Origin: Comamonadaceae bacterium
Lineage (GTDB): Bacteria > Pseudomonadota > Gammaproteobacteria > Burkholderiales > Burkholderiaceae_C
Assembly: GCA_013297985.1 (NCBI GenBank)
Contig: JAAFIY010000020.1
Span: 1 to 43,083, forward strand
Direction: 5' to 3'
Length of the DNA: 43,083 nt
Part shown: piece by piece, positions 8,652 through 14,069 of the stretch
Layout of the letters: every line of letters begins with the position of its first letter
Numbering within the stretch: position 1 is the stretch's first letter
The notes under the pieces: generated by a model
Told to the model about the DNA's origin: nothing
Database searches by the model: none
Seen by the model: the letters and a program-made list of their open reading frames with translations, nothing else
Translations under genes and position numbers: made by a program

Positions 8652-9391
8652 CCGCCCATCACCTCAAAGGTTTTGCGCAACGGTGGCGGCGGAGGCGGTG
8701 GTGGAGGCGGTGGCGGCGGTGGGGGTGCGTCGTACAGCACGCGGTCAACCGCTTCGATGTAGTAGACGTCGGTGGTGCTGGCCAACAGCCGGTCAGCGCG
8801 TTCGATGCGGGTGGTGACCAGCACCTCGGTGCGGGTGGGGCCACCCCCAGCCAAGCCGTTGAGTTCGCGGTTGCGCATGTCCAGCGCAAAGCCAATGCCG
8901 ATGGCCGACGCGGCGGCTGAAAAATTGCTGTGCCTAAAGGCCAAGTCACGCGCCACACTCACACCCAGGCCCAGGCCGGTGAGCGGGTAACCGTTGCCGT
9001 TGCTGGCTTCGCTGGCGTGTTGCACCACTTGGGTCTCCACCAGCAGTGCCAAGGCACCAGGCACATTGGGGCGGGTGGTGATTTCAAAGCCTTGCTCCAA
9101 CAAGCGCGCTTGCAGCAGCTTGCGAAAGCTTTGCTCAAACGCCCCGCCGTTGTCGCCGCCCACAAACACCAAGGGCGCCACGTCGCGGGTGTCTGGCCGC
9201 TCTTTGAGCTTGCCTTTCACACGCTGGCTAATGTCGGTGGCCAGTACATCCCAGTGGTGAACGGCGCGGGCTTTTTTCTGCCCGGTGATGGGGTAGTTGT
9301 CGGCCCGTGGCACGTCCAGCGTGTTGGCACAGCCCGCCAAGGCCACGGCAGCTGCCAGGGCCAAAGGGGTAAGGGCGCGCTTAGGATTCAT
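8648..9391 (-). CDS. Lipoprotein of unknown function ending in a polyproline run
   Basis: 247 residues with a clear lipoprotein signal (MNPKRALTPLALAAAVALAG then Cys21, lipobox LAGC). I do not recognise a named domain. The central part (ISQRVKGKL, APLVFVGGDNGGAFEQSF, LLQARLLEQGFEITT, GALALLVETQVVQH) has the alternating pattern of small alpha/beta periplasmic folds such as FlgO or LpoB, but this is a weak impression. The C-terminus has about 15 consecutive prolines followed by LRKTFEVMGG. The stop overlaps the start of the FlgO-type lipoprotein, so the two are coupled and probably act together at the outer membrane. The proline run may span the peptidoglycan or bind a partner. Confidence 0.75.
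   Translation of the reverse strand: MNPKRALTPLALAAAVALAGCANTLDVPRADNYPITGQKKARAVHHWDVLATDISQRVKGKLKERPDTRDVAPLVFVGGDNGGAFEQSFRKLLQARLLEQGFEITTRPNVPGALALLVETQVVQHASEASNGNGYPLTGLGLGVSVARDLAFRHSNFSAAASAIGIGFALDMRNRELNGLAGGGPTRTEVLVTTRIERADRLLASTTDVYYIEAVDRVLYDAPPPPPPPPPPPPPPPLRKTFEVMGG
8682..8726. repeat. GGN trinucleotide tract encoding about 15 prolines (minus strand)
   Basis: Fifteen consecutive GGN triplets on the plus strand, read as CCN on the coding minus strand, make up the polyproline end of the lipoprotein. The tract is only partly uniform (GGT, GGC, GGA, GGG mixed), so it is not a perfect microsatellite. Translation of such a run normally depends on elongation factor P. Confidence 0.9.
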
Positions 9392-9480
9392 GTCGCAGGA
9401 TGCTAGGGCGACGCACTTGCGCGCAGTGGGTGCAAATGGTGGGGAAAAGCTTCGCTATTTGGGGGTTGGGATATGCCGGT

Positions 9481-9497
9481 GCTATTGAAAAGATAGC
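9481..9497 (+). repeat. 17 bp dispersed hairpin, copy A (GCTAT-7-ATAGC)
   Basis: GCTAT TGAAAAG ATAGC: a perfect 5 bp stem with a 7 nt spacer. Four other copies with the same 17 bp geometry occur in this window, at 19381, 21371, 26162 and 39915. This one lies 90 nt upstream of the polyproline lipoprotein gene. Confidence 0.6.
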
Positions 9498-9586
9498 TGG
9501 ATGCGGCGTGTTTTAGGGCGGTGGCGGCTGTTTTTGTGTTGAGGTTTTTTTGGGGCTTGATTTGGGCGCTCTGACCAGAAGCACAA

Positions 9587-9682
9587 CAGCCGAGCGGGCA
9601 GCCCGATAGCTCCATGTCCCCCGAAGAGTCCACTGGACTCTTCTCCTCCTCTACTTACGCTATCGGGCCGCCCACTCGGCTG
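9587..9682. repeat. Long imperfect inverted repeat with nested hairpin
   Basis: Arms 9587-9610 and 9659-9682 are 24 nt each and match at 22 positions when one is reverse-complemented (core CGGGC.GCCCGATAGC). Inside the loop, GAAGAGTCCA (9623-9632) and TGGACTCTTC (9634-9643) pair perfectly over 10 bp around a single C. The whole could fold into an almost 100 nt structure in DNA or RNA. Confidence 0.75.
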
Positions 9683-9736
9683 CTGCGCTTCCGTCACGGC
9701 AGTCGAATCGGGGGTGCTGCATCGGCTCAGCTCGTG

Positions 9737-9933
9737 GTGTGCGGCAGGGCCTTGGGGGCGCATGGATGCCGCCGAGGAACGCAGGGAGCACAGGTTGCGG
9801 CGAAGCCGTCCGCCGCAGCTGTTTGAGCGCAGCGAGTTCTGCGGCGGCCTGTGATCGCGAGTACCAGCAGGGCAGTTTGGCCGCATGCGGCCAAACCGGC
9901 GATTCCTTAAGCCCCGAAGGCCCTGCCGCACAC
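9737..9933. repeat. Inverted repeat with 23 nt arms enclosing further palindromes
   Basis: Arms 9737-9759 and 9911-9933 (core GTGCGGCAGGGCCTT / AAGGCCCTGCCGCAC) match at 22 of 23 positions. The 151 bp between them contains a perfect 9 bp stem (CCGCCGCAG 9810-9818 / CTGCGGCGG 9839-9847) and a 22 bp perfect palindrome at 9875-9896 centred on GCATGC. No target-site duplication or transposase is visible. Confidence 0.75.
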
Positions 9934-9984
9934 CGCGTGCGGAAGTTCGTCACCGAAACAACCGCCACACGCCACCGGCGGCCA

Positions 9985-10015
9985 GTTCGTCCGACCGCTA
10001 AAAAACCGGCCGAAC
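9985..10015 (-). terminator. Possible terminator hairpin after ppc
   Basis: GTTCG (9985-9989) pairs with CGAAC (10011-10015), with further CCG/CGG pairing inside and an A/T-rich loop. It starts 5 nt after the ppc stop on the minus strand. The T-rich part is in the loop rather than after the stem, so this is a weak call. Confidence 0.3.
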
Positions 10016-10019
10016 AAAA

Positions 10020-12926
10020 TCACCCCGTGTTTCGCAACCCCGCCGCAATCCCGTTGATGCTGATGTGGATGCCCGTGCGCACCCGCTCGGTGGTCTCGCC
10101 CGCACGCCAACGCCGGATCAGCTCCACCTGCAAATGGTGCAGTGGGTCGATATAGGCGAATCGGTTACGGATGCTGCGCGCCAAGCTGGTGTTGGCGGCC
10201 AAGCGTTGTGATTGGCCGGTGATCTGGTTTAGCGCGTCCGTCGTACGCTGCCATTCGGCCTCGATGCGGCCAAACACGTTGCGGCGCAGCCGGGCGTCTG
10301 GCACCAGGGCCGCGTAGCGACCCGCCAGGGCCAGATCGCTCTTGGCCAGCACCATGTCCATGTTGGACAGCAGCGTGCGAAAGAAAGGCCAGTCGTGCTC
10401 CATTTTTTGTAGCAGCTTCAGCGCTTGAGCAGGGCGCATGGCCGGGTTTTCGTTGATGAAGGCATGCACCGCCGTACCAAAGCCGTACCAGCCCGGCAAG
10501 GTCAAGCGGCATTGGCCCCAACTAAAGCCCCAGGGAATGGCGCGCAGGTCTTCAATGCGCGGGCCGCTGGCGCCTGCGCGGGGGCGTGCGGCGGGGCGTG
10601 AGCCGATGTTGAGCTCTGCAATCTCGCGCACCGGCGTGGCGCTGAAGAAATAGTCGGCAAAGCCCGGCGTGTCGTACACCAACGCGCGGTAGGCCGTGCG
10701 GCTGAGTTCTGACAAGGTTTGCGCCGCTTGCAAAAAAGCGCGGGGCGCGGGTTTGGTGGGCTGCAGCAGAGTGGATTCCAGCGTGGCGGCCACCAGCGTC
10801 TCTAGGTTGCGGCGGCCAATCTCGGGGTTGGCGTATTTGCTGCCGATCACCTCGCCCTGCTCGGTCAGCCGAATCTGCCCGCGCACCGTGCCCGGCGGTT
10901 GCGCCAAGATGGCTTGGTAGCTGGGGCCGCCGCCTCGGCCCACAGTGCCGCCCCGGCCGTGGAACATTCGCAGCGCAATCCGGCTGGCAGGTACGGGTGG
11001 GTGACCGGGCGCATGCAAGCCGTCGCGGGCGAGTTCGTCAAACAGCGCCACCAGCGCAGTGCCGGCCTGGTACAGGCTCCAGTTGCTGGTGAAGATACCG
11101 CCGTCTTTGTTGCTGTCGCTGTAGCCCAGCATCACGTCTTGCTCGGCACCGCTGGCGGCCACCAGTTCGGCAATACCGGCCAAGCTGTAGAACTCGCGCA
11201 AGATGGTGGCGCTGTGCTGCAGGTCGTCAATGGTCTCAAACAGCGGCACCACGATGAGGTCGGCCATGGGCGGGTCGCCGGCATCGGTGGGGTGGGCGCG
11301 CAACACGCCGTGCAGCAGGCCGCATTCTTTTTGCAGCAGCAGCACTTCGAGCAAATCGCTCACGCTTTCGGTGTGGCTGATGATGCAGTGGCGCACCGCC
11401 GCGCTGCCATAGCGCTGGCGCATCTGGCAAGCGGTGGCAAACACATCCAACTCTTTGGTGGCCAGCGCGCTGTACGTGTGACCCGGCACGCGCAGCGCAC
11501 GCGGGTCGCGCAGGGCGCTTAGCAGGCAGAGGCGGCGCTGGGCTTCGTCGAGTGCGGTGTAGTCGGCTTGCACCCGAGCGGCGGCCAACAGCTCGGCCAC
11601 CACCACCTCGTGCTGATCCGAGCTTTGCCGGATATCGACCGTGCCCAAATGAAAGCCAAACACCTGCACCGCCCGCAGCAAGTGGCGCAGTCGCCCGTCG
11701 GCCAGGGCGTGCAGCCGGTGGGCGCGCAGGCTGGCGTCTAGCACCTGCAAATCGGCCAACAAATCCTGTGCGGCGCGGTAGGGGTTGCCCGGCGGCAGCG
11801 CGTGGCGGGCGGCGTCACCCCCGGTGAGTTCTTTGAGCGTGGCGGCCAGCCGGGCATACAGGCCGTTGACAGCGCGACGATAAGGCTCATCCGCGCGGTG
11901 TTCATTACCGTCGCCTGAGCGCTCGGCCAGCGCCAGCAGCTCGGGCGTGGCGTCAATCAGCCGGGCAGACAGCGACAACTCTGCCCCCAGCCGATAGAGC
12001 TCACGCAAATGGTGGCGCAGGGCCACATCGGCCTGGCGGCGCAGTGCCAAGGCCAGGGTTTGACCGTTGACATTGGGGTTGCCGTCGCGGTCGCCACCAA
12101 TCCATTGGCCCATGCGAAAAAAGGGCTGGTCAACCGGTTCACCCAAGGCGTCTTCCAGCTCGGCATACAGGCGCGGGATTTCAGTGAGGAAGGTGGCTTC
12201 GTAGTAACTGAGCGCGTTTTCAATCTCGTCGGCCACGCTCAGGCGCGAAAAGCGCAGCAAGCGCGTGTGCCACAGCTGGGTGACATGGGCACGCAGGGCG
12301 CTTTCATTGGCGGCCAATTCGCGCTCGGCTAGCCGGTCGCGCTTTAAGCCGCTGGCCGCAGCGGCGTGGCCAATGGCATCGCGCTGAGTGAGCAAATCGG
12401 CAATCTCACGCTCAGCGTCCAGAATGCTTTTGCGCTGCACCTCGGTGGGGTGCGCGGTGAGCACCGGCGACACATGGGCACGCTGGAGCATGTCGGCCAC
12501 CGCCTTGGGTGTGACGCCCGCCCAGCGTAGGCGTGACAAGGCCACGTCAATGCTGCCTTCTTGGGTGTCTCCTGCACGCTCATGCACCTCGCGGCGGCGA
12601 ATGTGGTGGCGGTCTTCGGCCAAGTTGGCCAGGTGGCTGAAATAGGTAAAGGCGCGCACCACCCGCACGGTGTCGTCGGCCGACAAGCCTTTGAGCAATT
12701 TTTTCAAGGCCCGATCGGCCTCGGCATCGGCATCGCGCCGAAAGGCCACTGACAGGGTGCGCACCTGTTCTACCAAGGCGAAAGCCGCGTCGCCTTCTTG
12801 TTCGCGGATCACATCACCCAACAGGCGGCCCAGCAGGCGAATGTCTTGGGTGAGCGGTTGGTCACCCGAGCGCGGGCGGCGTGCCGGGGCGGCGGTGTCT
12901 GCGGTTTTGGCGGTGGCAGCGGGCAT
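10020..12926 (-). CDS. ppc: Phosphoenolpyruvate carboxylase
   Basis: 968 residues from the ATG at 12926 ([17 protein letters not shown]); the frame stays open 84 codons further, but that part is unlike the family and would overlap the hemC leader. It carboxylates PEP with bicarbonate to oxaloacetate, replenishing the TCA cycle. Both signatures are present: [16 protein letters not shown] with the catalytic His, and the SDSNKDGG and [19 protein letters not shown] segments with catalytic Lys/Arg. [15 protein letters not shown] and the C-terminus GLRNTG, the allosteric/C-terminal anchor of the family, are intact. It is divergent from hemC. In the same window ppsA and ppsR also act on PEP, though they lie 16 kb away. 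Confidence 0.97.
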
Positions 12927-13008
12927 GGCGAGCCTGAATGACGGGCAGATGAGCTGGACGCTACAAAAAACAGAGCGCCTCAGGGAGTCTGCAAGCGCGG
13001 TGTAGCCA

Positions 13009-13020
13009 GATGCTAGCATC
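13009..13020. promoter_or_regulatory. 12 bp palindrome in the ppc-hemC divergent region
   Basis: GATGCTAGCATC is a perfect palindrome almost midway between the ppc start (12926) and the hemC start (13107). It may be an operator or simply a chance palindrome; no clear -35/-10 pair is attached to it. Confidence 0.25.
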
Positions 13021-13106
13021 GCTTCGGTTCGACACGGGTTCGAAACACGGCGCCTGCGTGCATGGCCGTGCCAAGCCCTGCCGCGCCCCACGCCCGCCTT
13101 CAGTCC

Positions 13107-14069
13107 ATGCCGCCCATGACCTTCACCATCGCCACCCGCGAAAGTCGCCTTGCCCTGTGGCAGGCCCAACATGTGCAAGCGCTGCTAACGCAAGCAGGAG
13201 CCCAGGTACAGCTTTTGGGCATGACCACCCGGGGCGACCAAATCTTGGATCAGTCTTTGAGCAAGGTCGGCGGCAAAGGCCTGTTTGTCAAAGAGCTTGA
13301 AATGGCCTTGGCCGATGGGCGGGCTGACCTGGCGGTGCATTCGCTCAAAGACGTGCCCATGGACTTGCCCGCGGGCATGGCCCTGGCCTGCGTCATGGCC
13401 CGCGAAGACCCGCGCGATGCGCTGGTGTCGCCGCGCTACGCATCGCTTGACGCATTGCCCCCGGGCGCGGTGGTGGGCACCAGCAGCTTGCGGCGGGTGG
13501 TCTTGCTCAAAAGCCTGCGGCCCGACTTGCGTGTGGAGCCCCTGCGCGGCAACCTCGACACCCGGCTGCGCAAGTTAGACGAAGGGCGTTACGACGCCAT
13601 CGTGCTGGCCCGTGCGGGCCTGCTGCGGCTGGGTTTGGCCGAGCGCATTGCCTACACCTTTGAACCACACCACATGCTGCCCGCAGCGGGGCAGGGTGCC
13701 TTGGCCATTGAAACCGTGGCGCATCGCGCGGATGTGGCCCAGGCGCTGGAGCCTTTGGCACATGCGCCCACCTGGTTGGCGGTGGAGGCGGAGCGCGCTG
13801 TGAGCCGCGCCTTGGGCGGCAGTTGTTCGGTGCCTCTGGCGGCGCATGCGACCTTTGAAGCGGTAGACGCCATCGGCGCGGTGCAGCGCATGGTGCTGCA
13901 AGCGGCCTGGGGTGATCTGACCGGTGTGACTGATGCCTGGGCGAACGGCGCGAGGCGTTTGCTGACCGCGCAGGGCCATTCCGATGTGCAAACCCTCGCA
14001 GAGGCGCGCACCTTGGGTGAACAAGTGGCCCAGCTGCTCAAAGCCCAGGGTGCCGGGGCGATCCACTAA
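13107..14069 (+). CDS. hemC: Hydroxymethylbilane synthase (porphobilinogen deaminase)
   Basis: 320 residues from the ATG at 13107 ([19 protein letters not shown]); the ATG at 13116 is equally possible and neither has a strong ribosome-binding site. The enzyme polymerises four porphobilinogens into hydroxymethylbilane for haem synthesis. The conserved blocks are present: [68 protein letters not shown], and the dipyrromethane-cofactor Cys240 in GGSCSVPL. It starts the hemC-hemD-hemX-hemY run. In Pseudomonas hemC and hemD directly follow algR; here ppc and the lipoprotein group lie between. Confidence 0.97.

Follow-up and report, generated by a model that had tools for sequence, protein, structure and literature searches.

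The paired-hairpin sequence beside the ppc gene in this stretch of DNA from a Comamonadaceae bacterium (43,083 nucleotides, which we will call the window) is a truncated copy, from 9481 to about 9992, of a non-coding mosaic repeat that is dispersed through the genome. We propose, with a probability of roughly 55%, that the repeat is a non-autonomous element similar to REPINs and BIMEs, and that it was copied probably via single-stranded DNA. According to three papers (PMC3116915, PMC8266576, PMC2817692), REPINs and BIMEs are mobilised by RAYT (TnpA-REP) proteins. The parts of the window copy and its neighbours are as follows.

9481 to 9556, plus strand: left end (LE), which begins with the hairpin GCTATTGAAAAGATAGC and is an imperfectly inverted relative of the right end (RE), as seen in the alignment of copies
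9578 to 9691, folded strand minus: hairpin A, from inverted repeats, a covariance model and family evidence
9578 to 9610 with 9659 to 9691: outer stem of hairpin A, 33 bp
9612 to 9622 and 9644 to 9658: conserved internal loop of hairpin A
9623 to 9631 with 9635 to 9643: inner stem of hairpin A
9692 to 9726, no strand: linker from hairpin A to hairpin B, variable, in all full copies
9727 to 9943, folded strand plus: hairpin B, branched, with outer arms 9727 to 9766 and 9904 to 9943 and three inner hairpins
9943 to 9991, no strand: tail, two short units of the type CCGCxCACxCCACxxGCGGxxAGTTCGTCACC
10020 to 13178, minus strand: ppc (phosphoenolpyruvate carboxylase), an ORF that matches Pfam PF00311 with 1028.8 bits
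8648 to 9391, minus strand: ORF of 247 aa next to the element, containing a run of prolines and without a match in Pfam

The window copy contains LE, A, B and the two tail units, and it is without RE and without REP (the end palindrome described below). A simple pattern count found 0-4 tail units per copy and scored the window copy as 1. An earlier, sequence-only reading had reported two long inverted repeats with nested stems at 9587-9933. This extent was too short, and the repeats themselves are real. A search of the plus-strand sequence found arms at 9578-9610 and 9659-9691 (33 nt, 88% complementary) and at 9727-9766 and 9904-9943 (40 nt, 83% complementary), with nested stems between both pairs of arms. 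None of 100 dinucleotide shuffles folded as well, either as single-stranded DNA of the plus strand (z = -8.3) or as RNA of the minus strand (z = -10.0). The covariance models for hairpin A (R1) and hairpin B (R2), which are described below, matched the window at 9587-9680 (E = 1.9e-11) and 9752-9918 (E = 2.5e-50). Mechanical ORFs cross this stretch, and copies of the element differ from each other in gaps of one base and in whole blocks that change without loss of the stems. These differences imply that the element is not coding.

The element lies directly beyond the stop codon of ppc (at 10020), that is, downstream of the gene, where ordinary terminators might be expected. We consider it exceedingly improbable that the element is a set of terminators or of chance hairpins. 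Intrinsic terminators have a short GC-rich stem and then a run of T, and the region 9380-10060 contains one terminator-like site, no more than the 1.0 in shuffled sequences. Chance hairpins are ruled out by the fold z scores (-8 to -10), and both ideas are contradicted by the covariation and by the presence of about thirty copies.

We searched the bacterium's own assembly (3.76 Mb in 193 contigs, 90% complete) with 9560-9960 of the window. There were 20 near-full copies at 87-100% identity, one copy at 78% identity, and further partial copies. By DNA similarity, no full copy was present in any of 59 relatives, and four of them had matches of 28-80 bp. A pattern for the outer arms of hairpin A matched no genome contig records outside of the own genome. 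The element had no phage match, its loop motif (hairpin A) was absent from viral contigs, and the only plasmid match was 33 bp from a Variovorax plasmid, inside B. Of the alternatives that the sequence-only reading had offered, the dispersed element is therefore confirmed, while mobility is suggested by the copies, their mosaic form and the palindromes at their ends. We saw neither a copy in movement nor a clean empty site.

Aligning the copies in one orientation shows that a complete copy has the order REP - LE - A - linker - B - tail - RE - REP and is roughly 0.6 kb long. We scored the anatomy of 29 of the 30 loci, omitting one (L027) that holds only the B of a copy that was already counted. 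LE is present in 28 of the 29, at a near-constant 74-85 bp ahead of the start of the match; B is present in 21 and RE in 13. The right-end REP is found in 12 copies (with a gap of 7 bp in 11 and of 6 bp in 1) and the left-end REP in 7 copies (14-15 bp in 5 and 28 bp in 2). Just 3 of the 29 have a REP at both ends, 16 have one at near-fixed spacing at one end or more, and 13 have neither. Since the window copy does without a REP, as do 13 of the 29 in all, the REPs cannot be needed for persistence. The eight copies that lack B have several different junctions (L023/26/29, L022, L024, L025/28 and L030). This fits independent deletions better than the late insertion of B with a target duplication, which we rejected. 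B also occurs without the rest of the unit at two places in the own genome (contigs C58 and C25). The sequence that follows the own genome's ordinary A pair (the 3' flank of L303) is of TAGC type, TTTAATAGCTGCTTAGGC, and resembles the element's left end. This suggests that the left end might itself be a separate dispersed repeat.

In being modular, dispersed, non-coding and rich in hairpins, the unit is like MITEs and like mosaic repeats of intergenic DNA, for example BOX or Correia elements, although we saw no terminal repeat with a target duplication. Because LE and RE are imperfect inverted relatives of about 45 bp, they could be the terminal inverted repeats of a MITE that is moved by a DDE transposase. 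We think this is quite improbable: RE is missing from 16 of the 29 copies, including the window copy, so that inverted ends are present in only part of the copies; no target duplication was noticed by eye; and 12 of the 13 copies with RE end in a REP at fixed spacing.

The palindromes at the ends point to a different enzyme. The exact core palindrome, TTGGGGTCWGACCCCAA, occurs at 26 sites in the own genome, and 17 of these have a copy of the element no more than 106 bp away. It is absent from 58 of the 59 relatives and occurs three times in the other. Two pairs of REP palindromes that are 48 and 54 bp apart (contig C135 at 3841/3889 and contig C6 at 5120/5174) resemble ordinary short REPINs. 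The own genome has a single match to Y1_Tnp, a 234-aa RAYT-like protein (Y1/HUH transposase), and its gene is bracketed on both sides by AATAAyTGGGGTCwGACCCCAATTATT. A protein search found orthologs of this RAYT in 139 of 150 genomes of the family, with one in most genomes. Among 30 RAYT loci, including the own genome's, GGGGTCWGA was upstream of the gene in 20, its inverse was downstream in 27, and 19 had both, while the background of such 9-mers in unrelated loci is 0.0035 per kb. These single-copy orthologs across the family (L250-L279) carry an inverted REP, AATTGGGGTCAGATTCCAATT, which has no GTAG head. At its ends, the unit has palindromes of this AATTGGGGTCAGATTCCAATT type with two changes. 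Given that the same palindrome is found on both sides of the RAYT gene, far above background, we conclude that the unit's end palindrome is the REP of this RAYT, and the RAYT is a plausible enzyme for the REP-ended units.

The hairpins themselves are probably not read by the RAYT, as models R1 and R2 found neither A nor B within 1.5 kb of the RAYT gene at any of the 30 loci. Also, because the RAYT is nearly universal, the distribution of A and B among genomes cannot be explained by its presence. A search with PF01797 had found RAYT in 16 of 24 genomes with the A motif and in 19 of 24 without it, but this model misses diverged RAYTs (in genomes G119, G010 and G019). We withdrew the reading that RAYT and A are not associated, as the protein search found RAYTs that PF01797 had missed. 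That comparison was also unsound because some of the genomes "without" the motif have A according to the covariance model.

Hairpins A and B belong to two families that are apparently undescribed so far. We found no description of either in the literature that we searched, which excludes subscription journals and preprints, so this is a weak negative. Known RNA families are ruled out by Rfam: the window had no matches, the A loci had nothing near a cut-off, and the only hit among the B loci was a glycine riboswitch in the flanking sequence of one locus (L307). There, tandem glycine riboswitch aptamers lie next to a B pair (1173-1412).

Hairpin A has a conserved, purine-rich internal loop, with AGUAAAGGAGGAG facing CGGGGGACAUGAG. 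The pattern CATGTCCCCCG-N5..35-CTCCTCCTTTAC for this loop was found in 63 of 399 genomes of the family, from 37 of 141 genera; a control with the pattern reversed matched none. In a draw of genomes from across the class, 2 of 369 had it, counting the own genome. The carriers that are named among the matches listed include Hydrogenophaga, Rubrivivax, Rhodoferax, Variovorax, Rhodocyclaceae and Xanthomonadaceae. To describe the stems, we aligned 34 of the 138 exact-motif copies, taking one per locus and requiring equal length. Double changes affect 24 of the 27 pairs, and 87% of the stem cells are paired, versus 37-44% if the partner is slid. The loop is thus kept across genera while the stems turn over. 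The covariance model (94 nt, 27 pairs) finds 32 copies in the own genome and has matches in 8 of 36 relatives, with the own genome included. Among 94 A elements, no neighboring gene was shared, with genes called by a crude ORF caller that placed 41 of the 94 inside ORFs.

For hairpin B, we built a covariance model from 22 of the own copies (leaving out L014 and L021). It matched 30 of 100 genomes of the family, with a best E value outside of the own genome of 6e-18, and found 27 matches in the own genome. Double changes affect 15 of 53 pairs in the own copies, and 98.5% of the cells are paired, versus 31-47% when slid. From copy to copy, the stems of the inner hairpins change in blocks. The model covers 170 nt, to which outer stems of 18-35 bp are added. 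The sequence-only reading had suggested that covariation be sought, and it had named a unique, unconserved sequence without compensatory changes as a case that would refute its reading; we find the opposite, as the sequence is repeated and both hairpins have compensatory changes in their stems.

The two hairpins fold on opposite strands. In the outer stem of A, 197 distinct copies have 3,093 Watson-Crick cells, 318 A.C cells, 17 G.T cells and 118 others. The A.C excess is alike for A copies on either strand of their contigs (A.C to G.T of 158:12 and 160:5), which excludes a mutation bias that depends on the replication strand. On the opposite strand, A.C cells read as G.U wobbles, so the working form of A is single-stranded and is the minus strand in the orientation of the element. 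This also accounts for the mismatches that had been seen in the first inverted repeat, which are A.C on the plus strand and G.U on the minus strand. There, the A stem of the window is flawless over 33 uninterrupted pairs (-84.9 kcal/mol, compared to -67.5 kcal/mol on the plus strand). For B, we set the outer stems of 33 of 35 copies in register by Watson-Crick pairs alone and counted 26 G.T and 5 A.C cells, so it is the plus strand of B that folds. (A count of 73:4 for the own genome's copies of B is biased by the structure predictor, and we rely on the unbiased 26:5.)

Since G.U pairs are equally expected of RNA and of single-stranded DNA, the wobble bias cannot tell the two apart. The structure that the sequence-only reading had suggested is upheld by the compensatory changes and by the strand-specific wobbles, and it may act as RNA or as single-stranded DNA. 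Specifically, A (from the minus strand) and B (from the plus strand) could act as RNA, in the form of structured 3' regions or small RNAs that have the purine-rich internal loop described for A and are bound by a protein or the ribosome. The copies would then have spread by recombination or as passengers. We consider this possible, though doubtful. It would explain the preference for wobbles on one strand of A, regardless of the strand of the contig, and the conservation of the A loop across genera despite the turnover of the stems. The absence of a promoter-like site or of excess terminators within 9380-10060, and the lack of an Rfam match, count against it, and about thirty near-identical copies within a single genome are typical of mobile DNA.

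The arrangement of the hairpins in pairs also bears on this question. Among close A neighbors (loci L100-L227), 70 were in the "+-" arrangement and 3 were "-+", and 53 of the 70 were spaced by 100-119 bp. In terms of the folded strand, such pairs are minus on the left and plus on the right. B pairs in other genera have the same arrangement (left minus, right plus); we noted nine such "-+" pairs, most of which were confirmed on refetched sequence. The own genome has one ordinary A pair (contig C180) and one ordinary B pair (contig C86). The window unit, with A-minus on the left and B-plus on the right, follows the same grammar with unlike partners. We saw no A beside B in other genomes among the positions listed for the models and patterns. 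In 67 tight A pairs, the mean likeness of the two stems was 0.58, which is the same as for random A stems (0.58), and this makes the pairing of A with B less odd. In a pair, the folded strands point outward and away from each other, so any one transcript reads just one member in sense, which counts against a role as RNA.

One locus in Hydrogenophaga speaks for the RNA explanation. We fetched 14 loci, of which 4 had both of the same neighbors, which we take to be an aldehyde dehydrogenase and an aldo/keto reductase from reading their sequences. All four of these genomes keep an A element or a remnant of one between the two genes, with differing stems. Two (G806 and G815) have tight A pairs with different stems, and one (G231) has a single A. 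At L312 (genome G800), the outer halves of the left and right A hairpins are fused into a remnant that is a new, perfect palindrome.

Some A arms lie farther apart and have genes between them. In genome G303 (L080 1681-3137), an Mrr-type restriction gene is between the arms of an A pair, and the right neighbor differs; the corresponding A pair in a sister species of Hydrogenophaga (G806, L308 231-514) is tight, at 100 bp. Two wide units have inverted A arms that are 95% and 93% identical, compared to the mean of 0.58 for the stems of the 67 tight pairs. The first (L203 4702-7365) contains two unknown ORFs, and the second (L292 677-3711) contains an ATPase similar to AAA/ORC-CDC6 proteins and an unknown ORF. 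A and B might be a new class of strand-specific long hairpins whose outward-facing pairs serve some enzyme as the termini of mobile units, at times with genes inside, but we view this as unlikely.

The elements have a preference for sites between convergent genes. In the own genome, this holds for 18 of 28 copies, compared to 6 of 35 other window gene pairs (p = 2e-4). Elsewhere, 22 of 86 A elements are between convergent genes (versus 58/450, p = 0.005) and 5 of 86 are between divergent genes (versus 67/450, p = 0.02). The 86 exclude 2 elements inside ORFs and 40 with no gene on one side. Gene calls relied on ORF length and GC3 instead of a trained caller. This enrichment at the 3' ends of genes would suit structured RNAs.

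It would also suit the REPIN- or BIME-like element that we favor. When DNA is single-stranded, such as during lagging-strand synthesis, the hairpins would fold, and RAYT or another enzyme may recognise the folded ends. The unit would then be copied into new intergenic places, mostly between converging genes, where it would do the least harm. Copies that lose B, RE or the REPs would become immobile remnants, and the window copy would be one of them.

As the cited papers describe them, REPINs and BIMEs share several features with the unit: palindromes that lie between genes in inverted pairs at a distance of about 100 bp, compensatory changes, combination into mosaics, a single-copy RAYT gene flanked by inverted REPs, and strand-specific folding (TnpA reads REP and not iREP). 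Close inverted pairs are formed by A and B alike, and it is the end palindrome that flanks the RAYT gene in inverted copies. The differences from those descriptions are in size (about 94 nt for A and 170-260 nt for B, compared to 20-50 nt for REPs) and in the place of A and B, which do not flank the RAYT gene as REPs do (0 matches in 30 loci). Also, the two stems within an A pair resemble each other no more than random A copies do. Other REPs carry a GTAG head, according to PMC8266576 and PMC2817692; in A, the conserved internal loop replaces it. There is no GTAG or GTGG head before the palindrome in the consensus of 34 A copies or in the alignment of B, and GTAG is absent from the consensus of the RAYT REP as well. 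Moreover, the REPs here bound a structured cargo of roughly 0.6 kb, instead of the short spacer of other RAYT-associated REPs. Given the size, the head and the failure of A and B to flank the RAYT gene, we regard the unit as a variant of the REPIN/BIME kind and not as a member.

If this is correct, then the unit is a REPIN-like mosaic that is tied to the single-copy RAYT of its own genome, in a family of beta-proteobacteria. It exposes two widespread families of hairpins with a measurable grammar of strand and pairing, and it makes testable the old question of whether intergenic palindromes are signals in RNA or substrates for the transposition of single-stranded DNA. If pairs of A also bracket accessory and defence genes, genomes would have in them a new way to gain genes.
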